Shown in pieces: positions 18,790-35,172 of a DNA stretch of 38,640 nt. Position numbers and translations under genes: made by a program. Every line of letters starts with the position of its first letter. Position 1 is the stretch's first letter. Under the pieces are notes generated by a model that was given only the letters and a program-made list of their open reading frames with translations, did not search any database and was not told the origin of the DNA. Origin of the DNA: Pseudomonadota bacterium (GTDB taxonomy: Bacteria; Desulfobacterota; Desulfobacteria; Desulfobacterales; RPRI01); contig JAHITX010000138.1 in assembly GCA_018817425.1 (NCBI GenBank), forward strand, positions 1 to 38,640, written 5' to 3'.

Positions 18790-19251
18790 ATGAATGCGAT
18801 AAATATGGAAAAAGCAAACCAAATTATCGATCAAAGAAATGAGGATAAAGGCTCTCTGATTCAGATATTGCTGGATATTCAGCAAAATTATCACTGGATT
18901 CCACCAGAAGTAGCGGCATTAATCAGTGAGCGTATTGATATACCCTTAAGTCAGGTTTACAGGGTTGCAAGTTTTTATAAATCACTAAGCTTAAAGCCCC
19001 GGGGAAAACACTTTGCCAAGGTTTGTATGGGAACAGCCTGCTATGTTCGCGGAGGAAAAGAAGTTATGGAAAAAGCAGGTGAACTTCTGGGTGTAGAGGA
19101 AGGCGGAACAACTGCTGACATGAAATTTACGCTGGAAAAAGTAAGCTGTATAGGCTGTTGTTCCTTAGGGCCCATGATAACGATAGACAATGAATACTTC
19201 GGCAAAGTTGTGCCGGATAATGTGGCCGAGATACTTGAGAATTACGAGTGA
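18790..19251 (+). CDS. NuoE/HndA-like [2Fe-2S] subunit
   Basis: The product has 153 residues, the usual length for the 24-kDa NuoE family. The thioredoxin-like [2Fe-2S] ligands are in CMGTACYVRGG and CIGCCSLGP. It pairs with the NuoF-like subunit encoded next; only ten bases separate the two genes. NuoE/F pairs oxidise NADH and occur in complex I, HndABCD hydrogenases, NAD-linked formate dehydrogenases and the BamGH part of class II benzoyl-CoA reductases. Here no hydrogenase or formate dehydrogenase subunit is encoded nearby. An alternative ATG lies five codons in. A weak AAGGG precedes the chosen start. Confidence 0.88.
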   Translation: MNAINMEKANQIIDQRNEDKGSLIQILLDIQQNYHWIPPEVAALISERIDIPLSQVYRVASFYKSLSLKPRGKHFAKVCMGTACYVRGGKEVMEKAGELLGVEEGGTTADMKFTLEKVSCIGCCSLGPMITIDNEYFGKVVPDNVAEILENYE

Positions 19252-19261
19252 GGTGATAATT

Positions 19262-20971
19262 GTGACAAGACTAAACTCCGTTAGCGACCTGGAAAAATTA
19301 CGAAAAGATATTTTGTCAAAAAAAGACCCTAAAAAACCGTGTTTAGCGCTTTGCGTAGGTACGGGTTGTATTCCACTGGGTGCTAAGAAGGTTTTGGCGG
19401 CATTTCAGGAAGAAATTAAAAAGCAGGGAGTAGAGGACAAAATTGAGTTAAAAGAAACCGGTTGTCCCGGCTTTTGCGAGAAAGGACCGATTGTCAGTAT
19501 TTATCCCGAAGGGATTTGCTACTGTGGTGTGAAGGTAGAAGATGTTGCCGATGTTATATCGCAAACCATAGCAGGAAAGACAATTGACAGCCTGCTCTAC
19601 ACTGATCCTACGACCGGGGAAAAGGTTGTCCATGAAAAGGATATTCCTTTTTATAAACACCAGATGCGTCTTCTACTAGGAAATAATTCCAAACTTGATC
19701 CACGCAGTATTAACGATAGTATTGCGCTGGGAGCTTATGGCGCGCTTTGTAAAGTTCTTTCACAAATGAGTCAGGATCAGGTTATTTCCGAGGTGGAAAA
19801 ATCACAAATAAGAGGAAGAGGCGGTGGCGGATTTCCTACAGGCCTGAAATGGAAGATAGCTAAAAATTCTCCCGGAAAGAAGAAATACGTTATTGTAAAC
19901 TGTGATGAGGGTGATCCCGGAGCTTATATGGATAGATCGCTCATGGAAGGAAACCCACACTCAGTTCTTGAAGGGCTCATTATCGGGGCTTACGCAATGG
20001 GAGCAACTGAAGGTGTTATCTATGTGCGTGAAGAATATCCCCTTGCTGTTGAAAATACCGAAATTGCAATCAGTCAGGCTGAAGGATACGGACTTCTTGG
20101 TAAAAATATCCTTGGTTCGGGATTTGATTTTAAAGTAACTGTCAGCAGGGGCGGAGGAGCGTTTGTTTGTGGTGAAGAAACCGCTCTGATCGCATCTTTA
20201 GAAGGAAAACCGGGCGAACCCAGACAGAGGCCGCCTTTTCCGGCAACAAGCGGGCTATGGGGAATGCCGACGAATATAAATAATGTCGAAACCTGGGCCA
20301 ATATACCAATCATAATTAATAAAGGCGGAGAATGGTTTAGTTCCATCGGAACCGAACGCAGCAAAGGCACAAAAATATTTTCTCTTGTGGGGAAAGTAAA
20401 TAACACCGGTTTGGTTGAAGTGCCTATGGGGATTTCCTTAAGAGATATTATCTATAAGATCGGTGGAGGAATCTCAAGCGGCAAAAAATTTAAAGCCGTA
20501 CAAACCGGCGGTCCTTCCGGGGGTTGCATACCGGAAGAATTTCTTGATACTCCGGTCGATTATGATGAGCTTGCAAAATTGGGTTCCATCATGGGCTCAG
20601 GCGGTATGATAGTTATGGATGAAACCACCTGTATGGTTGATCTTGCCAGATATTTTCTTGGGTTTCTTGCCGATGAATCTTGTGGTAAATGTCTTTCATG
20701 CAGGGAAGGAATCCGGCAGATGCAGGCAATCCTGACCGATATTATGGAAGGCAGAGGGCAAAAAGGTGATATTGAACTTCTTGAACGTCTGGCGGTGACT
20801 ATAAAAAAAGCATCTTTATGTGCTTTGGGTCAAACCGCACCTAATTCAGTATTGACCACCCTCCGCTATTTTAGAAATGAATATGAAGAACATATCGAAC
20901 ATAATAAATGTTCCGCCCGGGGTAAACGCAAAGCGCAAGCTTCGGTATTAACACAGGTGAATGTGCGATAA
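19262..20971 (+). CDS. NuoF/HndC-like NADH-binding flavoprotein, C-terminally truncated
   Basis: The product has 569 residues. Residues about 15-110 form a second thioredoxin-like [2Fe-2S] domain (CVGTGCIPLG, CPGFCEKGP). The NuoF core has the FMN/NADH loop RGRGGGGFPTG, DEGDPGAYMDR and CGEETAL, and the [4Fe-4S] ligands in ESCGKCLSCREG and CALGQTAP. HndC-type homologues normally end with CPAGxC and a 2[4Fe-4S] ferredoxin domain. Here the chain ends as KCSARGKRKAQA with no further clusters. The GTG at 19262 with GAGGTG upstream is the likely start; longer frames overlap nuoE without support. It should oxidise NADH and feed the two flanking Fe-S proteins, possibly as a flavin-bifurcating unit. 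Confidence 0.87.
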   Translation: MTRLNSVSDLEKLRKDILSKKDPKKPCLALCVGTGCIPLGAKKVLAAFQEEIKKQGVEDKIELKETGCPGFCEKGPIVSIYPEGICYCGVKVEDVADVISQTIAGKTIDSLLYTDPTTGEKVVHEKDIPFYKHQMRLLLGNNSKLDPRSINDSIALGAYGALCKVLSQMSQDQVISEVEKSQIRGRGGGGFPTGLKWKIAKNSPGKKKYVIVNCDEGDPGAYMDRSLMEGNPHSVLEGLIIGAYAMGATEGVIYVREEYPLAVENTEIAISQAEGYGLLGKNILGSGFDFKVTVSRGGGAFVCGEETALIASLEGKPGEPRQRPPFPATSGLWGMPTNINNVETWANIPIIINKGGEWFSSIGTERSKGTKIFSLVGKVNNTGLVEVPMGISLRDIIYKIGGGISSGKKFKAVQTGGPSGGCIPEEFLDTPVDYDELAKLGSIMGSGGMIVMDETTCMVDLARYFLGFLADESCGKCLSCREGIRQMQAILTDIMEGRGQKGDIELLERLAVTIKKASLCALGQTAPNSVLTTLRYFRNEYEEHIEHNKCSARGKRKAQASVLTQVNVR

Positions 20972-21041
20972 GCTGTTTACAAGTTGTTTGACCGGATATA
21001 AGTTTGTTTAAAGTTTGACCTGGAATAAGGGGAGTAATCAA

Positions 21042-22163
21042 ATGGCCCAAGTTTATAATCTAACCATTAATGATCAGCAGGTTAAAGCCGAAGAAGGCAC
21101 GACTATTCTGGATGCAGCCCGCAGTATAGGTATAGATATACCGACTCTTTGTTCTCATCCTTTACTGAAACCTTTGGGCGCCTGTCGTTTGTGCATAGTT
21201 GAGATTAAAGATGGCAATCGGTCTTTAGTAGGTACTTCCTGTACCTTTTTAGTTGCCGAAGGATTAGAAGTTAAGACGGATACACCTGAAATTCATGAAG
21301 CGCGAAAAGTTCTTATTGAACTGCTTTTGGCCCGTGCTCCTAAAGCAAAGATCATACAGCGTCTTGCCAAAGAATACGGTGTTGAAAATACCCGGTTGAA
21401 AACCGAGGATACCGGCGAACTTTGTATTCTTTGCGGCCTGTGCGCCAGAATATGCGATGAGGTTGTCGGAGCTAGCGCCATCAATTTTATCAACCGTGGT
21501 GTTAACAGAGAGATTGCTTTTAATCCTGAAGTGTCTTCGGAATCATGTGTTGGCTGTGGTGTCTGCACCACAATTTGCCCTACTCAATGTCTTGAAATTG
21601 AAAAGCCTTATGGTGTAATTTCTGCAATTGAGATGGGTAGAAAAGCTGCAATATCCATAGACAGCTATCTGGGTGGTAATGGAATTATCGATGAAGAGTT
21701 GGCGGAATTAAAAAAGCCTGAACCTTTTATAGGAAAGGTTCCTGATTTTTCAAATCGTTTAAGAACTATAGAAAGCTGTTCACTGGATGCAGCCACAAAA
21801 GAGAATGCGCTTTTTGAAGCAAAACGCTGTATGCAATGTGATTTAAGACTTCAAATCAGCTGTATAAAATCGCCTCCCGAACATTATCTTGAATTTAATG
21901 CCGAAAATGTCGGCAAAGTACCTGAAATTTCTGGTGTCTTTCAGCTTTTAGATAATGATAAAAAAGTAACCATGATTAAAGGCGCAATGAATATTAAAGA
22001 AGCGCTTGATGAGGCAATCGAAGGAAATAATGATGCCGCATGGTTTGAATGGGAAGCGGATGAAATGTTTACAAAGAGGGAAAGCGAGCTCATTCAGCAA
22101 TATATGCAAAAATACGGTGAAATGCCCGGAGGCGGCATGGACGAGCTTGATGACCTTTTTTAG
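21042..22163 (+). CDS. NuoG-like Fe-S protein fused to an orphan GltD-type tail
   Basis: The product has 373 residues. The N-terminal [2Fe-2S] domain (Cys37, 48, 51, 67) is followed by 2[4Fe-4S] (CILCGLCARICD, CVGCGVCTTICP). At about residue 190 the chain jumps to ISAIEMGRKAAISIDSYLGG, which is the closing helix of GltD-like FAD domains. It then continues through the long C-terminal tail of that family (EAKRCMQCDLRLQ, YTKRES-like KRESELIQQY, ending in DELDDLF). The whole FAD/NAD(P)H core is absent. The N-terminal half resembles that of the protein encoded at 17210, so the two look like paralogues with complementary losses. The ATG at 21042 has AAGGGGAG upstream. It probably forms one complex with the NuoE/F-like subunits. 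Confidence 0.82.
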   Translation: MAQVYNLTINDQQVKAEEGTTILDAARSIGIDIPTLCSHPLLKPLGACRLCIVEIKDGNRSLVGTSCTFLVAEGLEVKTDTPEIHEARKVLIELLLARAPKAKIIQRLAKEYGVENTRLKTEDTGELCILCGLCARICDEVVGASAINFINRGVNREIAFNPEVSSESCVGCGVCTTICPTQCLEIEKPYGVISAIEMGRKAAISIDSYLGGNGIIDEELAELKKPEPFIGKVPDFSNRLRTIESCSLDAATKENALFEAKRCMQCDLRLQISCIKSPPEHYLEFNAENVGKVPEISGVFQLLDNDKKVTMIKGAMNIKEALDEAIEGNNDAAWFEWEADEMFTKRESELIQQYMQKYGEMPGGGMDELDDLF

Positions 22164-22269: not shown

Positions 22270-22337
22270 CAAATATTATTTGCTGTTTAAGTTCCTTAAG
22301 AAAGAAATAATAATATCGAGCTGTTGTGAGGAGCAAA

Positions 22338-22775
22338 ATGAAGGAAATCTTATACGATGATCTGATTAAAGGGATGCAATTACCTGATATGACTTATGCT
22401 TTAACAGATGATGTTATAGATAAGTATCTGGAAGCGATTGATGATCTCAACCCACTTTATATCGATGAAGACTACGCAAAAAAAACCCCATTTAACGGAC
22501 GGATCGTTCCACCCATTTCCATGGCGATTTACAGTACTGTAAGCAGTGTTATTAAGCCTTTAAATGTAAAAACACCGCCCGGATTGATACATGCAAGGCA
22601 AAAATTTGAATTTACAGGATTAGTCAGGCCTGGAGATGAACTGTTAATTAAAACCATTGTAGAAGACAAATATGAAAAAAAGGGACGAAAATACGTTGTC
22701 TTTAAATCAGAAGTATTTAACAAGGATGGTCAAAAGATTGGTGCAAGCTGGTTAAGTCCCATATGGCCCAAATGA
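22338..22775 (+). CDS. MaoC-like hot-dog protein lacking the catalytic histidine
   Basis: The product has 145 residues and a single hot-dog domain of the MaoC dehydratase type. The normal hydratase motif D-x-N-P-x-H is here D36-L-N38-P-L-Y41: the catalytic His is replaced by Tyr, while the rest of the motif and the following AKKTPF segment match the next gene. GTGAGGAGC lies upstream of the ATG at 22338. It shares this segment with the 144-residue protein encoded at 22912, which keeps the His, so the two may form a heteromeric hydratase with one active and one structural subunit. In such clusters MaoC proteins hydrate (R)-type enoyl-CoA intermediates. Its own activity is doubtful. Confidence 0.8.
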   Translation: MKEILYDDLIKGMQLPDMTYALTDDVIDKYLEAIDDLNPLYIDEDYAKKTPFNGRIVPPISMAIYSTVSSVIKPLNVKTPPGLIHARQKFEFTGLVRPGDELLIKTIVEDKYEKKGRKYVVFKSEVFNKDGQKIGASWLSPIWPK

Positions 22776-22800
22776 TTTAAATATTGAAGAAATAGCCCAC

Positions 22801-22897
22801 GCGGCATATGAAATGCCGCCCTACGAAAGATGGTAGGGGCGGGTTTTAAACCCGCCCGGAATAATGCCGTAAGTAGGGCGGGGTTTTACACCCCGCC
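22801..22897. repeat. GC-rich palindromic intergenic repeat (REP-like)
   Basis: Three adjacent hairpins fill the gap: GCGGCAT/ATGCCGC (22801-22819), GGGCGGGTTT/AAACCCGCCC (22837-22857) and GGCGGGGT/ACCCCGCC (22877-22897). A related, more degenerate copy lies at 34289-34351, including the shared core CCCTRCGAAAGAT. Such elements are dispersed between genes and may affect mRNA stability. Confidence 0.65.
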
Positions 22898-22911
22898 GAA
22901 AGAGAGAATGT

Positions 22912-23346
22912 ATGAGCGGTTATAAAACTTTTGAAGAATTAAATATCGGGGAAGAACTGACCCCGGTAATAAAAAAAATGACGCAGGAAAAGATCAACAG
23001 ATACGTTAGTATTGCGGAAGATTACAATCCTATTCATACTGATGAGGAATTTGCAAAAAAAACTCCGTTTAAGGGAATAATTGCTCCCGGGTATCAGACT
23101 ATGGCTTATATTTCCGAATTAATGAGCCGGGATTTTGGCAATGCCTGGTATACAAACGGGACAATGGATATCAGGATGGTAAAGGTTGTAAGACCCGGTG
23201 ATTTATTGACTGCCAGAGCTAAAGTAGTAGATAAGAAAGAAGAAGAAGGAAAAAACATTGCGGTTTTTGAAGTTCGTTTGACAAATCAGAACAATGAAGA
23301 TGTAATCATTGGAAATGCTGAGGCAACGTTTCCTGAAAATAATTAA
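22912..23346 (+). CDS. MaoC-like enoyl-CoA hydratase
   Basis: The product has 144 residues and a hot-dog fold. The hydratase dyad Asp37/His42 is intact in EDYNPIHTD, followed by AKKTPFKG and the IAPGYQT loop (most relatives have IAHG). It should hydrate an enoyl-CoA, giving the opposite stereochemistry to crotonase-type hydratases. It follows the His-less paralogue encoded at 22338 across a palindromic repeat. AAGAGAG precedes the ATG. A heteromeric pair with that paralogue is plausible. The presence of both hydratase folds in one cluster suggests that more than one double bond or stereocentre has to be processed. Confidence 0.85.
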   Translation: MSGYKTFEELNIGEELTPVIKKMTQEKINRYVSIAEDYNPIHTDEEFAKKTPFKGIIAPGYQTMAYISELMSRDFGNAWYTNGTMDIRMVKVVRPGDLLTARAKVVDKKEEEGKNIAVFEVRLTNQNNEDVIIGNAEATFPENN

Positions 23347-23464: not shown

Positions 23465-24793
23465 ATGGCAGAAATGTTGGATTATAAGGATGTAGTATTG
23501 ATAGACGGAGCGAGAACCCCTATTGGAAAGTTCGGAGGATCTCTTAAAGATCTAATGGTATGGCAGATTGGCGCCATGGCAATCAAGGGTGTTCTGGAAA
23601 GAACCGGAATAGATCCGGAGCAAATTGATGAGGTAATAATGTCTCATACCAGACAGGATGGAACAGGAACCAATCCTGCCCGTAACATGATGCTTTTTGC
23701 AGGCCTGCCTAAAAAGATTCCGGCTCATACGGTAAATATGGTTTGTGCCGCCGGCTTGAAGGCTGTGCATCTGGCTGTTCAGTCAATTCGTACGGGTGAA
23801 ACCGACGTGGCGATTGTGGGCGGATCGGAAAGCATGAGCAATATTCCTCATATGTTAAGAGGTGCCCGCTGGCGTCCTCTTGGAAGATTGAATAATATTT
23901 CAATCGATGACGCCTTTTTATATCTTTCAGATAACTACAGCAAGCTGACTCCGGGACTTACCGCCGAAAGGTGCAGTGAAAGACACGGTCTTACCAAAGA
24001 GGAAAATGATCAGATAGGTTATGAGAGCCATGTTAAAGCGACCAAAGCATGGGCAGCTGGTGCTTTCGATGATGAAGTGTTTCCGGTAGATATTCCGGCT
24101 GAGCCAGTTAGGGGAGGGCATAAACCTTTCACCTTATATTCAGATGAGTGCTATAGAAAAGATGCTACTATCGAAAGTATGCGAAAACTTGGTACGCCCT
24201 TTAAAAAAGACGGAACAATAACTGCTGGAAGTTCATCGGGTATCACCGACGGAGCTGGTGCTTCATTGATTATGTCCCGTAAGAAGGCCGAGGAATTGGG
24301 TCTTAAACCTATAGCTTCTTTTGTTGATTTTCTCTTTTGTGGATTAGAGCCCGCTGATTTTCCGGATGGGCCCGGTCTTTCAATTCCAATGATACTTGAG
24401 AGGAATAAATTGACCTTAGATGATATGAAGTATGTTGAAATTAATGAAGCTTTCGGAGCTGTTTGCCTTGCTGCTGAGAAAATGATGGGCTGGAAAGATC
24501 GTGAAAAAATGAATCCTCATGGCGGCTGTATTGCTCTTGGACATCCTACAGGCTATAGCGGAGCCCGCCTTACTCTGCATCTTGCCCATACCTTAAATAA
24601 GGGTGAATATGGTTTAGCCTGCCTTTGTGGCGGTGGCGGCATGTCCGGCAATATGATTTTAAAGAGTGAAAGAGATCCTGATCAGACATACAAAAAGATT
24701 ATTGTCGGTCTTGATGAGAAAACAGGAATGGCTATTGCGAGAGAGCCTTCTGTGGAAGATATGGAAAAAATGAAAAAGCATGAAATCATCTGA
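23465..24793 (+). CDS. Thiolase (acetyl-CoA acyltransferase-like), long form
   Basis: The product has 442 residues, about 45 longer than usual, mainly from an insert before the central GTITAGSSS motif and a C-terminal extension rich in charged residues. The catalytic Cys lies in NMVCAAGLKA, and NEAFG, GHPTG and CLCGGGG complete the active site. It should carry out thiolytic cleavage of a 3-oxoacyl-CoA. AAAAAGGAG precedes the ATG. It lies before an unusual 3-hydroxyacyl-CoA dehydrogenase gene, so the two may act consecutively on a cyclic or ring-opened intermediate. It differs clearly from the thiolases at 966 and 35188, so three thiolases in the window probably have separate substrates. Confidence 0.9.
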   Translation: MAEMLDYKDVVLIDGARTPIGKFGGSLKDLMVWQIGAMAIKGVLERTGIDPEQIDEVIMSHTRQDGTGTNPARNMMLFAGLPKKIPAHTVNMVCAAGLKAVHLAVQSIRTGETDVAIVGGSESMSNIPHMLRGARWRPLGRLNNISIDDAFLYLSDNYSKLTPGLTAERCSERHGLTKEENDQIGYESHVKATKAWAAGAFDDEVFPVDIPAEPVRGGHKPFTLYSDECYRKDATIESMRKLGTPFKKDGTITAGSSSGITDGAGASLIMSRKKAEELGLKPIASFVDFLFCGLEPADFPDGPGLSIPMILERNKLTLDDMKYVEINEAFGAVCLAAEKMMGWKDREKMNPHGGCIALGHPTGYSGARLTLHLAHTLNKGEYGLACLCGGGGMSGNMILKSERDPDQTYKKIIVGLDEKTGMAIAREPSVEDMEKMKKHEII

Positions 24794-24844: not shown

Positions 24845-25699
24845 ATGGCTATAAAAAAAGTTGCAGTAATCGGCATGGGACTTATGGGCGCCGGAATTGC
24901 TCAGGTTTATGCAGAGGGTGGATGTGATGTATATGTTACCGATATTTCCGAAGAGTATATTAAAAAGGGAATGGCCAGCATCGATAAATTCCTTTCCAAA
25001 TCTGTTGCTAAAGGCAAGATGGAAGAAGCAAGAAAAGCTGAAATATTAGCAAAGATAAAGCCTATTAAAGATATTAGCGAGGCAAAAGACATTGATCTTG
25101 CGCAGGAAGCCGTTCCTGAAGATATGGAGCTTAAAAAGAAAATTCACAAGCAGCTTGATGAAGTTCTTCCCCCGAATGTTATTCTTGCAATCTGTACTTC
25201 GGCTCTTTGCGTCAGCGAAATTGCCGGAGCTACAAAAAGACAGGATAAGGTTATCGGAACCCATTTTCACAGTCCTGCGCAGGTTATGAAGATGGTTGAA
25301 GTTATTCGCGGATTGAATACTTCTGATGAGACAGTAAAAGATATAAACGAAATATTGGTAAAATGCGGTAAGAACGCCATTAATGTAATGGACTCACCCG
25401 GATTTATTACCAGCCGTGTATGGTGTCCTTTTGGAATGGCTGCTATCCAGACACTTACGGAAGGAATTGCTTCCAAAGAAGATATTGATGCAGCTCTTCA
25501 GGAAGGATTCCATCATCCAATGGGTCCGCTTAAACTTATGGACATTATCGGATTGGACGTAATGCTGCATGCAGCATTAGATCTGGAGAAGAATTTTGGT
25601 CCTGCCTACTCACCTCCTCCTCTTTTAAAGAGAATGGTTGCAGCAGGCCAGCTTGGTATGAAAACAGGTAAGGGATTTTACGATTATCCAAAGAAGTAA
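24845..25699 (+). CDS. 3-hydroxyacyl-CoA dehydrogenase family protein with altered active site
   Basis: The product has 284 residues, the size of PaaH/Hbd enzymes. The NAD-binding loop is [10 protein letters not shown]. The catalytic His140 and Glu152 and the helper Ser119 are present at the spacing of the human enzyme (His158, Glu170, Ser137). The two conserved active-site Asn (human 161 and 208) are both Ser: Ser143 in HFHSP, normally HFFNP, and Ser190 in GFITSR, normally GFIVNR. AAGGAGG precedes the ATG, and a strong hairpin follows the gene. It probably still oxidises or reduces a hydroxyacyl-CoA, but geometry or substrate may differ from straight-chain enzymes. The FadN-type dehydrogenase in this window keeps both Asn. 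Confidence 0.88.
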
Positions 25700-25887: not shown

Positions 25888-26667
25888 ATGGCTTATAATA
25901 ATATATTGTATGAGATTGAAGATGGTGTTGCAAAACTGACATTAAATATACCTGAAAAGATGAATCGCTTAAGCAACGAAACCATGAAAGAAGTAGTTGC
26001 CGCTTTAGATGAAGCAAAAGCCGATGATTCGGTAAGAGTTGTCGTTATTGGGGCTGCCGGCGATCAGGCTTTTTGTGCCGGAGCTAATCTTGCTGATTTT
26101 CAAGGTCTTTCACCTGTTGAAAGCCGTAAGGTTTTTTCCGCTTTTGCGGATCTTTCCAGAATTTTTATTAATCTTGGGAAACCATCAATTTCTGCGGTAA
26201 ATGGACTGGCTCTTGCGGGTGGTTTTGGGTTGGCACTTTATCCGGATATCACAATTGCTTCTGAAAATGCAAAATTCGGTCTTCCTGAAATTAATGTCGG
26301 AGTTTGGTCTTGCATGGTTTCCGCTTCGCTGCCAAAGCTTGTTGGAAGAAAAAAAGCTCTGGAATTGCTTATGACCGGCGATATGATTGATGCCAAAGAA
26401 GCTGAAAGAATCGGTCTTGTTAATAAAGTTGTTCCGCACGATAAACTGGAAGAAACCGTTATGGCTCTTGCTAAAAAAATCAGCAAAAAGAGCCCGGTAG
26501 TAATGAGCTTAGGACGTGATTCATACTACACAATGCTTGATATGGAATATGACAAGGCCGTTAGCTACCTTTTGGAAATTCTGGCAATAATTGTAAGTAC
26601 CGAAGACTGTCAGGAGGGTGTAACGGCTTTTACTGAAAAAAGAAAACCGGTCTGGAAGGGAAAATAA
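25888..26667 (+). CDS. Crotonase-family protein lacking one catalytic glutamate
   Basis: The product has 259 residues with the full crotonase fold. The first hydratase Glu, normally in GGGCEL, is Gly114 here (LALAGGFGLAL); the second, Glu134 in LPEINVG, is kept. The oxyanion-hole motif FCAGANL is present. With a single acid residue, simple hydration is unlikely; crotonases with this pattern include isomerases, decarboxylases and hydrolases. In this cluster a C-C hydrolase or isomerase acting on a cyclic CoA ester would be useful, since BzdY is missing, but this is inference. The next crotonase gene starts seven bases after its stop, so the two are co-expressed. Confidence 0.85.
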   Translation: MAYNNILYEIEDGVAKLTLNIPEKMNRLSNETMKEVVAALDEAKADDSVRVVVIGAAGDQAFCAGANLADFQGLSPVESRKVFSAFADLSRIFINLGKPSISAVNGLALAGGFGLALYPDITIASENAKFGLPEINVGVWSCMVSASLPKLVGRKKALELLMTGDMIDAKEAERIGLVNKVVPHDKLEETVMALAKKISKKSPVVMSLGRDSYYTMLDMEYDKAVSYLLEILAIIVSTEDCQEGVTAFTEKRKPVWKGK

Positions 26668-26674
26668 AAATAAT

Positions 26675-27472
26675 ATGGCGGAAAAATCGGCAAAAAATGA
26701 AGAGGTAGTACTTCTTTCAATACGCGAGCATGTCGCTGTTGTTACGTTAAACCGTCCTGAAGCGATGAACAGCTTAAACAGCGCTGTCTTTTCCGGTTTG
26801 AAAAAGATAATTGATGACATGGAAAAAGACGATGAAATTCGCGCAATTATTATAACCGGTGCAGGTGATAAAGCTTTTTGTGCCGGAATTGATCTTCGTG
26901 AACGAAAGGGAATGAGCAGCAAAGAGGTTAATTCCTTAAGAAGAGATATAATCTTTCCATGTTTTAAAAGCCTGGAAGATATGAAAAAACCTTTGATCGG
27001 AGCAATAAACGGTCTTTCTCTCGGCGGTGGCGCCGAAATAGCTTTGATGTGCGATATAAGAATCGCCTCGAAAAATGCCCGCTTCGGCCAGACCGAGGTG
27101 AAATGGGCTATTATTCCGGCTGCAGGCGCCTGTCAGCGGTTGCCGGCACTCATAGGCTTGGGAAGAGCAAAAGAATTGCTTCTTACAGGAAGAATTATAG
27201 ATGCAGCAGAAGGTGAAAAAATAGGATTGTTCAATCATATTACAAGTCAGGATGACTTGATGCAAAAGTCATATGAGATAGCTGATATGATAGGTGAAAA
27301 TGGTCCTGTTGCTGTAAGACAGATTAAAAAAGCGGTTGATCTTGGCGCTAAAAATGTGCTTGCCCTTGCTTTTGACAGTGAAGCTTCTGAAGCATGTTAT
27401 CATACCCAGGATCGCCTTGAAGGAATAGCGGCTTTTAATGAAAAGAGAAAGCCTAAATATAGCGGAATATAA
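26675..27472 (+). CDS. Enoyl-CoA hydratase (crotonase family)
   Basis: The product has 265 residues. Both catalytic Glu are present: GGGAEIAL and QTEVKWAIIP. The oxyanion motif is FCAGIDL. The P-A-A-G-A-C-Q-R segment replaces the usual PGxGGTQR, a modest divergence in the substrate loop. It starts seven bases after the preceding crotonase gene with only a weak GGGA far upstream, so it may rely on translational coupling. The pair of one complete and one Glu-lacking crotonase suggests consecutive or hetero-oligomeric action. The reaction is probably water addition to a cyclic or branched enoyl-CoA. Substrate unknown. Confidence 0.87.
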   Translation: MAEKSAKNEEVVLLSIREHVAVVTLNRPEAMNSLNSAVFSGLKKIIDDMEKDDEIRAIIITGAGDKAFCAGIDLRERKGMSSKEVNSLRRDIIFPCFKSLEDMKKPLIGAINGLSLGGGAEIALMCDIRIASKNARFGQTEVKWAIIPAAGACQRLPALIGLGRAKELLLTGRIIDAAEGEKIGLFNHITSQDDLMQKSYEIADMIGENGPVAVRQIKKAVDLGAKNVLALAFDSEASEACYHTQDRLEGIAAFNEKRKPKYSGI

Positions 27473-27518
27473 CCTTTGTTATAACACAATATGTTAGCAA
27501 CACAAGGAGGACAAGTTT

Positions 27519-28448
27519 ATGGAAGATATTAAAGCAATAGATATAATGAATTACCCCATCCAGGTTAAAAGTATTGTTGATTATGATTTCAACAAATACG
27601 AAGAATGGGCGATGATGGCGAAAACAACATTCAAACCTTTTTTCCCGTTGGGACGTTTTCCTAATACGCCGGAAGAGTTGGAACAGCATAAGCACCTTTA
27701 TGGTACATCATTTTATCCTTTTGAGACTGTAGATAAATTTATTGCTGCAATGGATAAGGACGGATACGACAGAGTTTGTATCGCAGCGGTTAAGATGTGG
27801 TCTTTCAGAAAAAGTTTCAGCCTGATTTTTGATTTTACTATTGACCAGGTTAATGAGATGGTCAAGCAGGGTAAGGGCCGGATAATAGGAGTTGCCGGAT
27901 ACAATCCTTTCAGAATAGATGAAAGTCTGACAGATATTGAAAAATCGGTTAAAGAATATGGTTTTAAATTTGTTTATGCACATCCGATTACTTTCGGTTT
28001 ACCATTTAATGACAAGAAAATGTATCCCCTTTATGGTCTGTGCAGCTCACTTAAGATTCCTGTTTCCATGCAGGTTGGGCACAGCGCTGAACCTCTTCCA
28101 AGCTGGGTGGGAAGTCCCATGACAGTTGATGAGGTTGTGATGGATTTTCCTGATCTTAAAATAAATCTTTCCCATACCGGTTTCCCATGGATTAATGAAT
28201 GGATTGATCTGGTCTGGAAGCATCCCAATGTTTATGGTGATATCGCAGCTTATATGCCTAAAAATCTTGATCCTGAGATAATCAAGTTTATGACAAGCGG
28301 AAGAGGGAACAGCAAGGTTATGTGGGGCAGCAATGGTATAGGCTTAACGCATGGCAAGCACCAACTTATGGAAATGGACATGAAGGACAAATATAAGGAA
28401 AATATCCTTCGCAATAATGCCTTAAGGTTTATGGGATTGGATAGCTAA
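27519..28448 (+). CDS. Amidohydrolase_2 (COG2159)-like protein with degenerate metal site
   Basis: The product has 309 residues and the TIM-barrel pattern of ACMSD-type amidohydrolases. His188 in QVGHSAEP and His219 in LSHTGFPW correspond to the usual metal/catalytic histidines. The N-terminal HxH pair is absent: the chain reads DIMNYPI at residues 8-14. The late Asp of the GxDxP motif is Asn272 in MWGSNG. With three of the usual metal-site residues lost, standard Zn-dependent hydrolysis or decarboxylation is doubtful. AAGGAGG precedes the ATG, so it is well translated. The gene lies between hydratase and acyl-CoA dehydrogenase genes, which suggests a role on a ring or carboxyl intermediate. 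The family call is firm; function is open. Confidence 0.78.
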   Translation: MEDIKAIDIMNYPIQVKSIVDYDFNKYEEWAMMAKTTFKPFFPLGRFPNTPEELEQHKHLYGTSFYPFETVDKFIAAMDKDGYDRVCIAAVKMWSFRKSFSLIFDFTIDQVNEMVKQGKGRIIGVAGYNPFRIDESLTDIEKSVKEYGFKFVYAHPITFGLPFNDKKMYPLYGLCSSLKIPVSMQVGHSAEPLPSWVGSPMTVDEVVMDFPDLKINLSHTGFPWINEWIDLVWKHPNVYGDIAAYMPKNLDPEIIKFMTSGRGNSKVMWGSNGIGLTHGKHQLMEMDMKDKYKENILRNNALRFMGLDS

Positions 28449-28468: not shown

Positions 28469-29614
28469 ATGGATTTTCAATTAGATTCTGAACTTGTTCA
28501 GATTCAAGATACTGTAAGAAAATTTTGCGAAAAAGAAGTAACTCCGCATGCTGAAGAATGGGAAAAAAATGAATTTTTCCCTCGTGAAACAATTAGAAAG
28601 ATGGGTGGGCTTGGTTTTTTTGCTTCACCGTTTCCGGAACAATATGGTGGCACTGAGCTTGGTTTTCTGGCCAATATCATTGTTGCCGAAGAACTTGGAA
28701 GAGCATCGCTGGGCCTTGCCTGTTGCCTTAATATGCAAAGCGGAACCTGTCCGATGACTCTTTTATTAAACGGCAATGAAGAACAAAAGGAGAAGTTTCT
28801 TCCTGGAATAATAAGCGGCGAGCTTTTAGGTTGTTTTGCAGTCACAGAACCGAATGCTGCAACCGATGTGGCTGGTATAGAAACAAAAGCCATCAAAGAC
28901 GGGGATCATTATATTTTAAATGGTTCAAAAATGTGGATTACACATTCTTCGGTATTTGATGTCGGGATTTGTTTTGCAAAAACTGATCCTACTCAAAGGC
29001 ATAAAGGATTGTCTGCTTTTATTATTGAAAAAGGTATGGAAGGTATGACCGGGATGGCTGAAAAGGATAAGCTTGGTGTTCGCTCTTCCGATACCGGTCA
29101 GATAGTATTTGAAGATGTTAGAGTGCCCAAAGAAAATCTGATTGGCGAAGAAGGGCAGGGTTTTAAAATTGCGGAAAGCGCCTTAACATACGGAAGAGCA
29201 AATATTGCCGGCAGATCTCTTGGAATCGGTCAGGCAGCAGTGGATGCCGCTTTAAAATATGCAAATGAGAGAGAGCAGTTCGGAAAGAAAATCGGTTTTT
29301 TCCAGATGAACAAGCAGATTATTGCAGATATGGTTGCAGAAATTGATGCTTCAAGATTGCTTGTGTATCGTGCAGCCTGGTTGCAGGATCAAAAAAGGCC
29401 AAGTTCAAATGAGAGCACAATTGCAAAATTTTATGCATCTGAAGCAGCAGTTAGAGCGGTTATCGGAGCAGCCAAGATTCATGGAGCTTACACTTATTCT
29501 TCCGAATATCCGGTAGCAAGACTGTACCGTGATGTTATGCTGATGACGGCCGGTGAAGGAACATCGAATATTCAAAGATTAATAATCGCCAACAATGCGT
29601 TAGGCTGGAAGTAA
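28469..29614 (+). CDS. Acyl-CoA dehydrogenase
   Basis: The product has 381 residues, a standard FAD-dependent acyl-CoA dehydrogenase that forms an alpha-beta double bond and passes electrons to electron-transferring flavoprotein. The flavin/substrate motif CFAVTEPNAATD, the KMWITHS loop and the catalytic Glu363 in GEGTSNIQR are present. AGAGG lies upstream of the ATG. It starts 20 bp after the amidohydrolase-like gene and ends nine bases before the CoA-transferase-like gene. No ETF genes are in the window. It differs from the second acyl-CoA dehydrogenase at 32956, so two distinct oxidation steps are likely, for example on ring-bearing and ring-opened acids. Confidence 0.92.
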   Translation: MDFQLDSELVQIQDTVRKFCEKEVTPHAEEWEKNEFFPRETIRKMGGLGFFASPFPEQYGGTELGFLANIIVAEELGRASLGLACCLNMQSGTCPMTLLLNGNEEQKEKFLPGIISGELLGCFAVTEPNAATDVAGIETKAIKDGDHYILNGSKMWITHSSVFDVGICFAKTDPTQRHKGLSAFIIEKGMEGMTGMAEKDKLGVRSSDTGQIVFEDVRVPKENLIGEEGQGFKIAESALTYGRANIAGRSLGIGQAAVDAALKYANEREQFGKKIGFFQMNKQIIADMVAEIDASRLLVYRAAWLQDQKRPSSNESTIAKFYASEAAVRAVIGAAKIHGAYTYSSEYPVARLYRDVMLMTAGEGTSNIQRLIIANNALGWK

Positions 29615-29623: not shown

Positions 29624-30916
29624 ATGAAATATGGGAATCAACCTAAAACAGGTAAAATAAGTATTTCAGATGCTATAGGCATGATCAAGAGCGGCCAGCG
29701 GGTTTCGTTGAGCCCTGTATGTGCTGAGCCGCTCAATTTAGTTAAAGAACTGATTAATCAGAAGGATAGGCTTGAAAATGTTACCCTGTATACCATGATG
29801 CCTATGGGGGACTGTGAATATTCAGGTCCTGATATGTTAAAGCACTTTAATGTAAAAGTGTTTTCTGTCGGTCCCAAATTGATGAAGGCTTTAAATCAAG
29901 GTTATGCCGAATATATTCCCTGCCATCTTTCACAGATACCGTTTTTTTTCAGGGAACGTCTTGTAGAATCTGATATAGCACTTGTTCAGATGTCGACTCC
30001 GGACAATCATGGATATTGCAGCCTTGGAGTTAGTGTAAGCTACATCAGGCCGGTGATAGATAATGCAAAAATTGTTATAGCCGAAATAAATGACCAGATG
30101 CCCAGAACTCTGGGTGATTCTATGGTGCATATTTCCCAGGTGGATTATATTGTAGAAACTTCACATCCGATACCGACCATTCCTGTTCCGAAGATAGGAG
30201 CAGTTGAAACAAAGATAGCCCAAATAACGGCGGAACTTGTTCCGGACGGGGCGGCAGTCCAGGTTGGGATCGGGAACATAGCGGATGCAATACTTCAGGA
30301 ACTGACCTTAAAAAAGAATCTGACCATACATACAGGGACTTTTTCGGACGGTGCTGTGGCATTGGCAAAATCGGGTGCTCTTGACGGCATGAAAGGACAG
30401 CCTGAAAGCGGTAGAATGACTACTACCGAGTTAATAGGCACCACGGAATTATATAACTTTTGTCATAACAATCCTCTGGTTTCTCTTCGTCCCATAGATT
30501 TTACGCATAATATTAATGTGCTGAGTCAGATCAATAATTTGATAAGTGTGACCGCAGGTATTGAGATAGATCTGTCAGGCCAGGTTAATGCGGAAATGCG
30601 TGGCAAAACTCTTGTAAACGGTGTTGGCGGTCAGCTGGATTTTGTCCGGGGTGCAGGAGCCTCTTTTGGGGGAAAGTCAATTGTTGTTTTTCCATCTACT
30701 GCAAAAAAAGGAGAAATATCCCGGATTGTGCCGAAACTTGGTGAGGGAGTTACTGCAACTGTAGGCAGGGCGGATATAGATTATGTAATTACTGAATTTG
30801 GTGTTGCGCATCTTAGAGGTAAAACTCTTTCGGAAAGAGCAAGGGAATTAATTGCTGTCGCCCATCCGGATTTTCGACAAGAACTAAAAAGCGCTTTCAA
30901 TAAGATAAACAATTAG
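29624..30916 (+). CDS. CoA-transferase/acetyl-CoA hydrolase family protein with altered nucleophile motif
   Basis: The product has 430 residues, the size of 4-hydroxybutyrate and butyryl-CoA:acetate CoA-transferases. Family marks are VQVGIGNIADA, IEIDLSGQV, FVRGA and TEFGVAHLRG. In those enzymes the glutamate that forms the glutamyl-CoA thioester lies in H-[ST]-E-M-x-S-D-G. Here the segment reads HTGTFSDG, with Gly238 where the Glu should be. If the alignment holds, ordinary CoA transfer is impossible and the protein may be a hydrolase, a lyase or a non-catalytic binder. No clear ribosome binding site precedes the ATG, nine bases after the acyl-CoA dehydrogenase stop, so translation is probably coupled. 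Confidence 0.82.
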   Translation: MKYGNQPKTGKISISDAIGMIKSGQRVSLSPVCAEPLNLVKELINQKDRLENVTLYTMMPMGDCEYSGPDMLKHFNVKVFSVGPKLMKALNQGYAEYIPCHLSQIPFFFRERLVESDIALVQMSTPDNHGYCSLGVSVSYIRPVIDNAKIVIAEINDQMPRTLGDSMVHISQVDYIVETSHPIPTIPVPKIGAVETKIAQITAELVPDGAAVQVGIGNIADAILQELTLKKNLTIHTGTFSDGAVALAKSGALDGMKGQPESGRMTTTELIGTTELYNFCHNNPLVSLRPIDFTHNINVLSQINNLISVTAGIEIDLSGQVNAEMRGKTLVNGVGGQLDFVRGAGASFGGKSIVVFPSTAKKGEISRIVPKLGEGVTATVGRADIDYVITEFGVAHLRGKTLSERARELIAVAHPDFRQELKSAFNKINN

Positions 30917-30929
30917 GAGGATAATGGAT

Positions 30930-32294
30930 ATGAAAAAAGTAGTTATTGGTTCCGGTTCAGCCTTTTGGGGAGATATTTTTGAACCGGCCCTGGAAATGGC
31001 GCAAAGCGGCGAAGTCCAATATATGGGCTTTGATCACCTTGCGGAATTGACCATGGCGATATTAAATCGCATGAAAGCAAAAAACCCGGAAGCCGGTTAT
31101 GTTCCGGATATTATTCCCTGGACTAAAAGACTTCTTCCGGTTACTCAAAAAAACGGCATTAAAATGATAACCAATGCCGGAGGCGCTAATCCAGTGCAAG
31201 CGGCTTTGGAAGTGGCAAAGGTTGTCAAGGAGTTAAATCTTGCTCCGATGAAGTTAGGCGTTGTTTCCGGAGATGACATCCTGCCTTATATAAATGATAT
31301 TCGAGCACAGGGCTGGAAGTTTAAGAATCTGGATACGGGCGAAGAAGACATTGATTCTATCCAGGACAGACTTGGCGCTGCCAATGCTTATATTGGCGCT
31401 GATCATATTATAAAAGAACTGAAAAACGGCGCAGATATGATAATTTGCGGCAGAGTTTCGGATAATGCCCTGTATGTTGGTCCTATTATGCATGAATTCG
31501 GCTGGGATTTCTCGGATCAGTATATAGATCGTATTGCTGCTGCTGTTACAGTAGGCCATATCATAGAATGTTCTGCCTGTGTAAGTGGCGGTATGTCAAA
31601 CATGTGGAAAGTGTCGGAAAGACCTTGGGATATTGGTTTTCCGATAGCCGAATTTTATGAAAACGGTGATGCTCTTATTACAAAAACCAGTGGATCAGGT
31701 GGTATTGTGAATTCATGGACAGTCAAAGAACATTTGCTTTATGAAATCATTGATCCGGCAAATTACCTGATGCCGGACGGCATCGGTGACTTTACTGCTC
31801 TGAAATTGCATGATGAAGCAAGAAACCGTGTAATGGTTACAGAGATGAAAGGCAAGAAACGTCCTGATACTTTGAAAGTTTGTATAGGATTCAAAGACGG
31901 TTTTATTGGTGAAGGACTGATCTATTTTCCGTCACCCGATGCTCTTGCAAAAGCCCAGTGGGCTGAAAAATGGCTGAGAGAGAGATTTAAAAAACTTGGC
32001 ATAAACTTCAGAGAACTTCGTATTGATTACATGGGTGTTAATATGCTCCATGGCGAAGCTGCTGAGGTAGAAGACAGGGATTATAATGAAATAGGCCTTA
32101 GAATAGCAGGCCGTACACATACCTATAAAGAAGCAGAAGCCGTACGCAGGGAAGCAACACATTTATGGACAATGGGACCTGTTGGCTCCAGTTTTGGTGT
32201 TCCTATGAATGTCAGACCGGTTATTGCGCTTTGGCCGTCACTTGTTCCGAGGGATGCCGTTAAGATCGAAAGTCAGTTAATGGAGGTGAGCTAA
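30930..32294 (+). CDS. AtuA family (DUF1446-type) protein
   Basis: The product has 454 residues from the ATG at 30930; an ATG two codons earlier lies only three bases after AGGAGG and is less likely. The N-terminal GSGSAFWGD and NAGGANP motifs, ICGRVSDNALYVGP and SGGSGGIVNS-like TSGSGGIVNS identify the acyclic terpene utilisation AtuA family. AtuA belongs to the citronellol/geraniol pathway of Pseudomonas, but no enzymatic reaction is established for it. The small AtuA-like protein is encoded two bases downstream, so the pair is tightly coupled. In this cluster it sits between CoA-transferase-like and acyl-CoA dehydrogenase genes, so action on an acyl-CoA or a hydroxy acid is plausible. Function unproven. 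Confidence 0.85.
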   Translation: MKKVVIGSGSAFWGDIFEPALEMAQSGEVQYMGFDHLAELTMAILNRMKAKNPEAGYVPDIIPWTKRLLPVTQKNGIKMITNAGGANPVQAALEVAKVVKELNLAPMKLGVVSGDDILPYINDIRAQGWKFKNLDTGEEDIDSIQDRLGAANAYIGADHIIKELKNGADMIICGRVSDNALYVGPIMHEFGWDFSDQYIDRIAAAVTVGHIIECSACVSGGMSNMWKVSERPWDIGFPIAEFYENGDALITKTSGSGGIVNSWTVKEHLLYEIIDPANYLMPDGIGDFTALKLHDEARNRVMVTEMKGKKRPDTLKVCIGFKDGFIGEGLIYFPSPDALAKAQWAEKWLRERFKKLGINFRELRIDYMGVNMLHGEAAEVEDRDYNEIGLRIAGRTHTYKEAEAVRREATHLWTMGPVGSSFGVPMNVRPVIALWPSLVPRDAVKIESQLMEVS

Positions 32295-32296
32295 TT

Positions 32297-32674
32297 ATGA
32301 AAAAAGTAAAGCTTACGGAATTGGCTTTTGCCAGATCCGGAGATAAAGGGGATGTCAGCAATATTGGATTGATGGCAAAGTCAAAGAATATTTATGAATT
32401 TTTATTGACGGTAATAACACCTGAAAGACTTAAGGAATATTTTGGCGGTATGGTTAAAGGTCCGGCTGAGATATATCCTGTGCCTCATCTCGACAGCTTA
32501 GAGATCATTTTACGCCAGGCGCTTGGCGGTGGTGCAACCTGCTCCTTAAGATTTGACCAGACAGGCAAATCAATGGGTCCTGTTTTGTTGGGAATGCAGA
32601 TTCTTGTCAGCGAGGAATTGCTGGAAGAAGCAAGAGCTGTAGATGAAAGCATTATAAAGCAATATGCTGTTTGA
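32297..32674 (+). CDS. AtuA-like ferredoxin-fold small subunit
   Basis: The product has 125 residues and corresponds to the C-terminal domain that follows AtuA in many genomes, either fused or as a separate gene. Typical marks are LAFARSGDKGD near the N-terminus and a central Gly/Pro-rich stretch. Despite the fold name it has no cysteine cluster motif, so it does not carry Fe-S centres. GGAGGTGAG overlaps the end of the AtuA gene and the two-base gap implies translational coupling and a stoichiometric complex. Nothing else in the cluster resembles it. The reaction of the pair is unknown. Confidence 0.85.
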   Translation: MKKVKLTELAFARSGDKGDVSNIGLMAKSKNIYEFLLTVITPERLKEYFGGMVKGPAEIYPVPHLDSLEIILRQALGGGATCSLRFDQTGKSMGPVLLGMQILVSEELLEEARAVDESIIKQYAV

Positions 32675-32955: not shown

Positions 32956-34107
32956 ATGGATTTTGAGCTTTCTGAAGAACAGAAGATGTTCAGAGACCAG
33001 ATTCGTAATTTTGCAGAGACTGAAATTGCTCCTTTGGTAGATGAAGCCGAAGAGAAAGAGGTTACACCTCTGCAACTTTTTCCAATGATGGGAAAACTCG
33101 GCTATCTTGGTATTACCTATTCGGAAAAATATGGTGGAGCAGAGGTCGATAAGATTACGGAGTGTATTCTGATTGAGGAGTTAAACAAGGTATGCGCCGG
33201 TATAGCCGGAGTGGTCAGTACCACCCATTCGGGTCTTGGCACAAGAGCAATAAATGATTACGGAACGGAAGAACAAAAGCAGAGATTTCTTGTGCCTGCT
33301 ATCAAAGGTGAGAAAATAGCCGCTTTTGCATTAACTGAGGCCGATGCCGGTTCAGATGCTATTGCCCTTCGGACAAGAGCAGTAAAAGACGGCGATGATT
33401 ATATTATTAACGGCAGCAAGATGTTTATCTCAAACGGCACCTTTTGTGATTTTGTGCCTGTTGCCTGTTATACTACCGATCCCAAAGAAGTAAAAAAGAG
33501 AGGGCAAGGAATAAGCCTTATTGTTGTTGAAAAAGGCATGCCGGGCTTTTCTGCGACAAAGTTAAAAAAGTCGGGAAATCGCTCTCATGAAACAGCCCAG
33601 CTATATTTTGAAGATGTAAGAGTGCCGAAAGAAAATCTGATAGGCGAAGAGGGTAAGGGCTTGGCTCAGATACTGACAACCCTCAAGTCAGGAAGAATTT
33701 CTTATGGTGCAAGAGCAACGGGTATGGCTCAGGCTGCATATGATCTTGCATTCAAATATGCCCATGAGAGAGAGCAGTTCGGCAAACAGATTGCAAAATT
33801 CCAGATCAACACTGTAAAGCTTGTTGATATGGCCATGCATATAGATATCATGCGGATGATGACCTACCGGGCGGCCTGGATGTACTCAGAGGGAATGAAT
33901 TGTATGAAAGAGGCTTGCATGCTGAAGATTTATGCAACTGAGAAAGTACAAGAGCTGATGCTTTTAGCTCTCGATCTGCACGGCGGTTATGGTTATATGC
34001 GCGAATATGCGATTGAACGTCTGTGGCGCGATGCCAAGATGTTGAATCTTACTGAAGGAACCACGCCTATAAACTATATGGCTGCGGCAAGAGAACTTGG
34101 TATATAA
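32956..34107 (+). CDS. Acyl-CoA dehydrogenase
   Basis: The product has 383 residues. Flavin and substrate motifs are AFALTEADAGSDA and KMFISNG; the catalytic Glu367 lies in LTEGTTPIN. The DLHGGYGYMREY segment before it is typical of short/branched-chain and glutaryl- or cyclic-acyl dehydrogenases. A strong TTAGGAGG precedes the ATG. It stands between two inverted-repeat segments, so it may be transcribed with the upstream genes or from its own promoter. Probably it oxidises a CoA ester of a cyclohexane-type or dicarboxylic acid using ETF. The exact substrate cannot be told from the sequence. Confidence 0.92.
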   Translation: MDFELSEEQKMFRDQIRNFAETEIAPLVDEAEEKEVTPLQLFPMMGKLGYLGITYSEKYGGAEVDKITECILIEELNKVCAGIAGVVSTTHSGLGTRAINDYGTEEQKQRFLVPAIKGEKIAAFALTEADAGSDAIALRTRAVKDGDDYIINGSKMFISNGTFCDFVPVACYTTDPKEVKKRGQGISLIVVEKGMPGFSATKLKKSGNRSHETAQLYFEDVRVPKENLIGEEGKGLAQILTTLKSGRISYGARATGMAQAAYDLAFKYAHEREQFGKQIAKFQINTVKLVDMAMHIDIMRMMTYRAAWMYSEGMNCMKEACMLKIYATEKVQELMLLALDLHGGYGYMREYAIERLWRDAKMLNLTEGTTPINYMAAARELGI

Positions 34108-34351: not shown

Positions 34352-34392
34352 CATATCCTACAGTTTGATTGCATAAGCTAAGAGAGGATAAA

Positions 34393-35172
34393 ATGGAGTC
34401 ACAACTGGTTCACTATAAAATTGAAAACAAGGTGGCCATTGTCAGCCTTGATAACCCCCCTATGAATGCTTTGGATGTTCCGACCAAAGAATGTATCAGA
34501 GATGTATTTACCGAACTCGATGCCAAAAGAAATGAAATTCGTGTAGTCATATTACAGGGCGCTAACAAGGCTTTTGCGGCAGGAGCTGATATAAAAGCTT
34601 TTTTGGATCTTCAACCCGATACGGCAAAACGACGCCTTATGAGAAGCCACAGTATGTATTCAGTTGTTGAAAACTGTGAATGGCCTGTAATTGCAGCTAT
34701 ACACGGGTATTGTCTGGGCGGTGGGCTTGAGCTTGCTCTTTGCTGTGATATACGTTATGCAGATGAAACCGCTCAGTTTGGATTCCCGGAAGTTGGTTTG
34801 TCGATTTTTCCGGGTAATGGTGGAACAAGACGGGCATTATATGCTACCAACCTTGGTAGAATGAAAGAGCTTGTTTACACTGGGGAGATGATTAAAGCGG
34901 AAGAAGCATTACGGATAGGTTTGATAGAAAAGGTTGTCCCGGCCGGAACAGCTCTTGAAAAAGCTAAAGAGCTGGCCGCAAAAATAATGAAAAAAGGACC
35001 TCTTGGTGTTGCGGCGGCAAAAAAAGTATTAAACCGTACACGGGATCTTACTTTAGAGCAAGGTCTGGAACTGGAATCCGATGTTTGGGCAAGTCTTGCA
35101 GCAACAGAAGATATGAAAGAAGGGGCACGGGCCTTTGTCGAAAAAAGAAAACCTGAATATAAATGTAAATAA
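34393..35172 (+). CDS. Enoyl-CoA hydratase (crotonase family)
   Basis: The product has 259 residues. Both catalytic Glu are present (GGGLELAL, FPEVGLSIFPGNGGTRR) with the oxyanion motif FAAGADI. The ATG at 34393 has AGAGGAT directly upstream; the longer TTG-started frame lacks such a site. The thiolase gene starts 15 bases after its stop, so hydration and thiolysis are coupled at the end of the cluster, probably for the last ring-opened or straight-chain steps. It is the fourth crotonase of the cluster and looks the most like ordinary short-chain hydratases. Confidence 0.9.
   Translation: MESQLVHYKIENKVAIVSLDNPPMNALDVPTKECIRDVFTELDAKRNEIRVVILQGANKAFAAGADIKAFLDLQPDTAKRRLMRSHSMYSVVENCEWPVIAAIHGYCLGGGLELALCCDIRYADETAQFGFPEVGLSIFPGNGGTRRALYATNLGRMKELVYTGEMIKAEEALRIGLIEKVVPAGTALEKAKELAAKIMKKGPLGVAAAKKVLNRTRDLTLEQGLELESDVWASLAATEDMKEGARAFVEKRKPEYKCK

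Follow-up and report, generated by a model that had tools for sequence, protein, structure and literature searches.

A candidate metal-free ring hydrolase in the thn operon: ThnN and its amidohydrolase-family relatives

The window, by which we mean the whole stretch of 38,640 nucleotides analysed here, holds what gene order and protein family identify as a complete thn operon for anaerobic naphthalene degradation, and the ORF at 27519-28448 is, by its position between thnM and thnO, thnN. Alignments indicate that its product lacks four of the five metal ligands of the amidohydrolase superfamily, and we consider the chances slightly better than even that ThnN is a metal-free C-C (retro-Claisen) hydrolase of the 1,3-diketone ring in 1,3-dioxodecahydro-2-naphthoyl-CoA, a cyclic 3-oxoacyl-CoA. 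A broader and more tentative proposal, which we would put somewhat below even, is that a clade of metal-free amidohydrolase-family C-C hydrolases replaces the crotonase-type BadI and Oah for alicyclic 3-oxoacyl-CoA rings, with ThnN as its naphthalene branch. If true, the superfamily would gain a class of metal-free C-C bond hydrolases, to our knowledge the first, and alicyclic ring opening would have a second solution beside BadI.

The thn operon and the thnN gene

The thn operon is known from the anaerobic naphthalene degraders N47 and NaphS2, with the published gene order R A B C D E F G H I J K L M N O P Q S T U V (PMC12016498, Table 1). In the window, 21 of these 22 genes are matched one for one, and thnG is replaced by four ORFs. 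The whole operon lies on the forward strand, and its genes were assigned by family and order except where stated. It starts with a TetR-type regulator (thnR, 10792-11499) and an enoyl-CoA hydratase family protein (thnA, 11556-12383), followed by two HGD-D subunits of a class I aryl-CoA reductase (thnB and thnC, 12425-14922; by position, the tetrahydro-2-naphthoyl-CoA reductase), two BcrAD/BadFG ATPase subunits (thnD and thnE, 14948-16635) and a ferredoxin (thnF, 16645-16971). The four ORFs at the place of the single N47 thnG are of NADH/ferredoxin oxidoreductase type (17210-22163). Next are a pair of MaoC-type hydratases (thnH and thnI, 22326-23346), a thiolase (thnJ, 23465-24793), a 3-hydroxyacyl-CoA dehydrogenase (thnK, 24845-25699), a crotonase-family protein without the first hydratase glutamate (GGFG; thnL, 25888-26667) and an enoyl-CoA hydratase family protein (thnM, 26675-27472). 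Beyond thnN lie an acyl-CoA dehydrogenase (thnO, 28469-29614), a CoA-transferase (thnP, 29624-30916), AtuA and an AtuA ferredoxin-like domain (thnQ and thnS, 30924-32674; the ring-II lyase according to PMC12016498), a further acyl-CoA dehydrogenase (thnT, 32956-34107), an enoyl-CoA hydratase family protein (thnU, 34369-35172) and a thiolase (thnV, 35188-36375). The first-pass annotation had pointed to subfamilies beside bzd-type genes for comparison; the pathway of this operon is 2-naphthoyl-CoA degradation, not bzd-type benzoate degradation.

The four ORFs in place of thnG resemble NADH dehydrogenase subunits and ferredoxin-linked flavoproteins, and perhaps represent a different electron supply for the ATP-dependent reductase; at the same place, locus L010 has a single open frame of 845 residues. 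Both L010 and L006 show the same order as the window, as far as their stretches reach, and L008 does so with one additional SDR separating O from P, at the place of thnW in NaphS2. The order in L007 is N-O-extra-P-Q-S-two extra-T; its S and T are separated by two additional genes, for an amine-oxidase-like flavoprotein and a thiolase-like protein, which are unlike NaphS2 X and Y, and no thn gene was recognised upstream of its thnN. Elsewhere in the window, a histone-deacetylase-domain protein of 577 residues (36672-38405) lies downstream of thnV on the same strand, and a thiolase and a FadB-like protein of about 811 residues (966-4618, minus strand) form a separate upstream beta-oxidation pair. 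The source genome gave 13 Oxidored_FMN matches at E 1e-50 or better and one UbiD-family match. As a multi-UbiD naphthalene carboxylase like that of N47 is thus not evident in this genome, the natural substrate may be naphthoate or methylnaphthalene.

The enzyme that opens the first naphthalene ring in anaerobic bacteria is still to be assigned (PMC12016498, 2025). ThnL, a putative ring-cleaving hydrolase in earlier literature (PMC10570749), opens 2-oxocyclohexanecarboxyl-CoA but not 1,3-dioxodecahydro-2-naphthoyl-CoA (unpublished results in PMC12016498, Heker et al. 2025). Because ThnL failed on the 1,3-dioxo substrate and ThnN was the sole hydrolase candidate left out of the assays, ThnN became the leading candidate for ring I (PMC12016498). 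The ThnN proteins of N47 (N47_E41360) and NaphS2 (NPH_5899), which we liken to that of the window by gene order and description, occupy the same operon place and are described as members of the amidohydrolase superfamily; NPH_5899 is upregulated on naphthalene and is also listed as upregulated on benzoate (PMC2988823). For these proteins PMC12016498 assumes the metal-activated water of the superfamily, which the residues of the window ThnN would not allow in its usual form. The words histidine and zinc are absent from the main text of that paper, and we saw there no remark on a missing site. Thus the ThnN protein and its candidacy are already in print, whereas in the open-licence literature searched (listings and passages) we found no statement that ThnN lacks its metal site, nor any on the spread of this loss over a clade or on clusters with a ThnN relative in the place of BadI. 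Another crotonase as the ring-I enzyme of the source genome was rejected: the Oah and BadI models each gave eight matches in this genome, all under the curated cut-offs, and the best match to both models is ThnL itself.

The thnN gene, called as an ORF and assigned by Pfam and alignments, encodes 309 residues on the forward strand. A ribosome binding site, AAGGAGG, can be read directly at 27504-27510, with a spacing of 8 bases to the ATG. The only Pfam match of the protein is Amidohydro_2 (PF04909, COG2159; E 4.2e-22, 79.7 bits against a curated cut-off of 26.4), and none of the NCBIfam models matched it. The dN/dS ratio of thnN is 0.020 against L010 and 0.027 against L006, its close orthologues (five orthologues were compared, dS being saturated in the other three), which indicates purifying selection and rules out a decaying pseudogene. 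Because of these ratios we regard thnN as a real, maintained gene, and the first-pass description of a well-formed amidohydrolase-family gene with a strong ribosome binding site is borne out. An AlphaFold2 model built from six close orthologue sequences has a mean pLDDT of 42 and a pTM of 0.36, too low to be of use. No ThnN relative was found in the viral contigs scanned.

Loss of metal ligands in ThnN and across its clade

The reference set of five ligands, which we take from ACMSD, LigW and similar enzymes, consists of the two histidines of the beta-1 HxH motif, the beta-5 and beta-6 histidines and the beta-8 aspartate. In ThnN the HxH motif is absent, Met10 and Tyr12 standing at its histidine positions (DIMNYPI, residues 8-14), and GxD is replaced by GSN (residues 270-272), as the first-pass annotation had read from the translation. 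Asn272 aligns with the invariant beta-8 aspartate both in a 44-row alignment and in a profile-profile alignment with six metal-complete relatives (E 4.5e-67), a column that varies among PDB LigW chains (Asn in 4qs5, Asp in 4inf). The beta-5 histidine, invariant across the metal-complete set, corresponds to Gln185 in the same two alignments, and the IHP histidine of LigW falls on the Gln185 column in a PDB profile alignment. His188, taken by the first-pass annotation as a surviving ligand together with His219, lies three residues further on. It was rejected as the retained beta-5 ligand, as both types of alignment place the ligand at Gln185 and a relative with all five ligands (L121) has histidine at both the 185 and the 188 columns (VLIHTGHTG). 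His219 does align with the invariant beta-6 histidine in the profile-profile alignment. Because the beta-5 column is Gln185 and not His188, the ligands lost number four, not three: both histidines of HxH, the beta-5 histidine and the beta-8 aspartate. As aligned, the loss reported in the first-pass annotation is real and larger than stated, with His219 alone kept, and with four of five ligands gone, ring opening by ThnN would probably be metal-free.

The best solved relative of ThnN is BB4693 (PDB 3irs/3k4w; profile E 4.8e-48), annotated as uncharacterised. Like ThnN, it is devoid of HxH (DFRLRP) and keeps the beta-6 histidine; its residues at the Gln185 and Asn272 columns are Met and Ala, respectively, and, unlike ThnN, it has no QVGHS motif. 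No characterised protein combining the residues of ThnN with Zn-dependent hydrolysis was met in the five PDB alignments checked residue by residue, of 39 sequences, and we know of no activity for any member of the ThnN-type clade.

The ligand loss extends well beyond the window. Gln185 is present in 36 of the 44 non-redundant aligned rows (window included), and HxH in none of the 35 Gln185 rows whose beta-1 motif is readable (the remaining one, L042, has an uncertain start). Both HxH histidines are kept in only three of the 44 rows, L003, L004 and L005, all from the source genome. Conservation was tabulated at 48 positions over 40 Gln185 rows, and His219, Gly187, Pro223, Trp224, Glu227 and Lys266 are among the invariant ones. 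Histidine occurs at position 12 in four of these 40 rows and at position 10 in none, and the residue at position 272 is most often Asn (27 rows), otherwise Asp (nine), His (three) or Thr (one). These counts bear on the highly improbable alternative that ThnN is a metalloenzyme using other residues, such as His188, His219, Glu191 or Cys175. Conservation of His219 (40/40), Cys175 (39/40), His188 (35/40) and Glu191 (27/40) agrees with such a site, but His188 is replaced by Gln in the other five rows and Glu191 is replaced in 13. Among the 48 positions, the only possible ligands that are invariant or nearly so are Asp8 (one gap), Cys175, His219 and Glu227; of these, Asp8 lies outside the five ligands in the metal-complete set and is invariant there too.

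A tree was built without the four trait columns from 52 of the 74 aligned rows. Left out were eleven distant controls (L122, L124, L126, L128, L132, L133, L134, L135, L137, L138 and L140, of which L134 has residues neither of metal type nor of Gln185 type), five near-duplicates (L060, L061, L154, L156 and L158), L151 (start unreadable) and five repeated reference rows. Rows without HxH form a clade of 42 (support 92/91), within which a nested clade of 37 also lacks the beta-5 histidine (support 99/95), and the beta-8 aspartate is replaced in parts of the latter. The loss thus looks stepwise on this tree: HxH, then the beta-5 histidine, then the beta-8 aspartate. The exact Gln185 set was rejected as a clade, since constraining its 34 rows to group lowers the log-likelihood by 33.7 units (p-AU 0.005); the Ser row L088 nests among Gln185 rows, and the Asn rows L160 and L136 fall inside the same 37-row clade. 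Because the Gln185 set is not a clade, we make the claim for the wider group without HxH and beta-5 histidine, and by this tree ligand loss is a trait of a clade, not special to the ThnN of the window. A quick tree made earlier had placed the distant row L005 within the group, at the end of a long branch. The branch adjoining the no-HxH clade holds the metal-complete Amidohydro_2 proteins L121, L123, L125 and L127, which share a WPW beta-6 region with it and, unlike ThnN, retain all five ligands.

ThnN-type proteins were found in deltaproteobacterial lineages, in haloarchaea and, with a variant site, in Paracoccus. Matches to ThnN at E 1e-25 or better occur in at least 42 of 395 genomes drawn from the phylum (a lower bound, with at most five candidates scored per genome), and matches at 1e-35 in eight of 389 genomes drawn from the class. 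The family is dispersed without being common, and few genomes have a close ThnN orthologue. Among the 20 genomes searched for Amidohydro_2, G424 shows an unusual expansion, with 44 matches at E 1e-20 or better.

Gene neighbourhoods of ThnN relatives

Seven kinds of core gene were counted within 5 kb: acyl-CoA dehydrogenase, crotonase, MaoC, hydroxyacyl-CoA dehydrogenase, thiolase, class I aryl-CoA reductase and CoA-transferase. At least one kind is found at 27 of 35 Gln185 loci versus five of 18 metal-type relatives from the same set of genomes (Fisher p 0.0009), and two or more kinds at 18 of 35 versus three of 18 (p 0.019); because the rows were chosen for their resemblance to ThnN and many come from short contigs, these figures describe an association, not a random sample. 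At eight of the 35 Gln185 loci the 5-kb neighbourhood is devoid of core genes, which counts against the hydrolase reading, although part of these misses reflects truncation on short contigs. Metal-type rows, defined by the beta-5 histidine plus at least one HxH histidine, number 19 (14 with all five ligands, three H-x-Q, one E-x-H and one Y-x-H), namely 18 of the 20 control regions and L143, fetched with the test set and added by its residues. Loci at least 90% identical to another were dropped (L060, L061, L154 and L156 for Gln185, L130 for the metal type), and L157 (same stretch as L008), L090 (no annotation) and L169 were left out. Two groups were counted apart: L160, L088, L134 and L136, with other residues (core gene in two of four), and five loci without HxH but with the beta-5 histidine (core gene in one of five).

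Class I aryl-CoA reductase genes share a stretch with ThnN relatives in L057, L075, L009 and L070. Metal loss is not needed for such company, as the metal-complete L123 (G013:C253, match 5027-5857; HxH, His, His, Asp) has four class I aryl-CoA-reductase-like genes, a MaoC and an acyl-CoA dehydrogenase within 5 kb. By its residues and neighbours, L123 is a natural metal-bearing counterpart to ThnN. In L064, a gene whose best model is the pimeloyl-CoA dehydrogenase small subunit adjoins the ThnN relative.

Other neighbourhoods are more varied. L058-L060 carry ThnN relatives of about 50% identity beside a fusion of old yellow enzyme and pyridine-nucleotide oxidoreductase of about 660 residues (Pfam-scanned in L058), and are possibly type III aryl-CoA reductase clusters; L058 also carries a FadL/TodX-type outer membrane protein and a MaoC-type protein. 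L061 and L062 have a glycyl-radical enzyme and a crotonase on one side of the ThnN relative, a radical-SAM protein on the other, and acyl-CoA dehydrogenases around them (Pfam-scanned in L062, by layout in L061). The source genome itself has a second metal-less paralogue (L071, contig C120), 51% identical across 239 residues. Its neighbours, which include acetone-carboxylase-like subunits, are hydantoinase A and B genes, of which the B gene contains an acetone-carboxylase gamma domain, and a protein whose C-terminal domain is of AMP-ligase type.

Two plasmid clusters resemble cyclohexanecarboxylate gene sets. A ligase, a dehydrogenase, a hydratase and an SDR provide the steps of cyclohexanecarboxylate beta-oxidation, in which BadI, like Oah, hydrolyses a cyclic 3-oxoacyl-CoA, the same kind of step as proposed for ThnN. 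The first cluster lies on a haloarchaeal plasmid of Natrinema DC36 (L087), and its ThnN relative, WP_226043065.1, has 39% identity (Met, Arg, Gln185, His219, Asn272). Its neighbours are an acyl-CoA ligase, one crotonase with both hydratase glutamates, and an SDR and an acyl-CoA dehydrogenase, for which the best NCBIfam models are BadH (1.4e-89) and cyclohexanecarboxyl-CoA dehydrogenase (7.5e-81), respectively. Similarly, a Paracoccus plasmid (L088) carries an SDR with BadH as best model (1.4e-70), an acyl-CoA dehydrogenase with cyclohexane-1-carbonyl-CoA dehydrogenase as second-best model, a CoA-transferase, one two-glutamate crotonase and an amidohydrolase that has Ser in place of Gln at position 185. 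In both clusters the matches to BadH and to the dehydrogenase models fall short of the curated equivalog cut-offs. Neither BadI nor another ring hydrolase was seen within these two clusters, and the gene content suggests that a ThnN relative stands where BadI would be. A third such cluster (L159) is less clean, as it has an extra crotonase without the hydratase glutamates, which could be its ring hydrolase.

These clusters also bear on the strongest rival, which we nevertheless think unlikely: that ThnN is a metal-free hydratase of hexahydro-2-naphthoyl-CoA or beta-oxooctahydro-2-naphthoyl-CoA. Amidohydrolase-superfamily hydratases exist, with 4-oxalomesaconate hydratase among the PDB profile matches, and clusters with a reductase could equally need a hydratase. 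Two pathway steps await an enzyme; six other candidates were tested, none of which hydrates hexahydro-2-naphthoyl-CoA, ThnN was left out, and a second hydratase awaits identification (PMC12016498). But the thn operon has several hydratases, two of which were possibly misfolded when tested (PMC12016498), and L087 and L088 already hold a two-glutamate hydratase beside the ThnN relative, with no other ring hydrolase seen there.

Proposed ring opening and its alternatives

For ThnN as ring-I hydrolase, we propose that the cyclic 1,3-diketone would bind in the former metal pocket, with Gln185, His219 and Asn272 at old ligand positions and His188 nearby. Gln185 and Asn272 may form hydrogen bonds to the enolised carbonyls in place of metal-ligand contacts, and the invariant His219 would be the likeliest general base or acid and activate a water. 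The water would attack a ring carbonyl, and the C-C bond would break to yield the ring-opened 3-oxoacyl-CoA. A metal need not be chemically required, because the substrate, a 1,3-dicarbonyl thioester, is doubly activated in itself. The crotonase-fold hydrolases BadI and Oah, unrelated in sequence to ThnN, which matches only Amidohydro_2, carry out such ring cleavage without metal. The changed chemistry in a ring-opening pathway suggested by the first-pass annotation stands as to context (thn operon, ring-I hydrolase candidate, metal loss), with the activity itself a prediction from sequence. This sequence advises against expecting or adding a catalytic metal for ThnN and names the residues to test, and the haloarchaeal and Paracoccus plasmid proteins offer simpler models with likely easier substrates.

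Loss of catalytic residues is typical of pseudoenzymes, and thnN sits between thnM and thnO; ThnN could thus be a non-catalytic scaffold, substrate channel or regulatory partner of ThnL, ThnM or ThnO. We consider this improbable: the old pocket is constrained (His219 in 40/40 and His188 in 35/40 Gln185 rows), dN/dS is 0.02-0.03, and relatives are found with quite different partner genes. The reading to which we give the least credence is action on another bond, by thioester hydrolysis, on a lactone side product or by decarboxylation. LigI is a metal-independent lactonase of the superfamily, and the solved relatives of ThnN include the decarboxylases LigW and ACMSD, but the pathway as given in the passages of PMC12016498 on the ring-I stage has neither a lactone nor a decarboxylation step.

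Geobacter metallireducens provides a further comparison with the hydrolase proposed here. Its BamU (Gmet_2147), for which PMC12016498 states 43% similarity to ThnN, is listed as Amidohydrolase, with a value of 10.4, among expression changes during benzoate metabolism (PMC1924859). As Oah2 appears in the same table with a value of 27.2 (PMC1924859), Geobacter also has a crotonase-type ring hydrolase.
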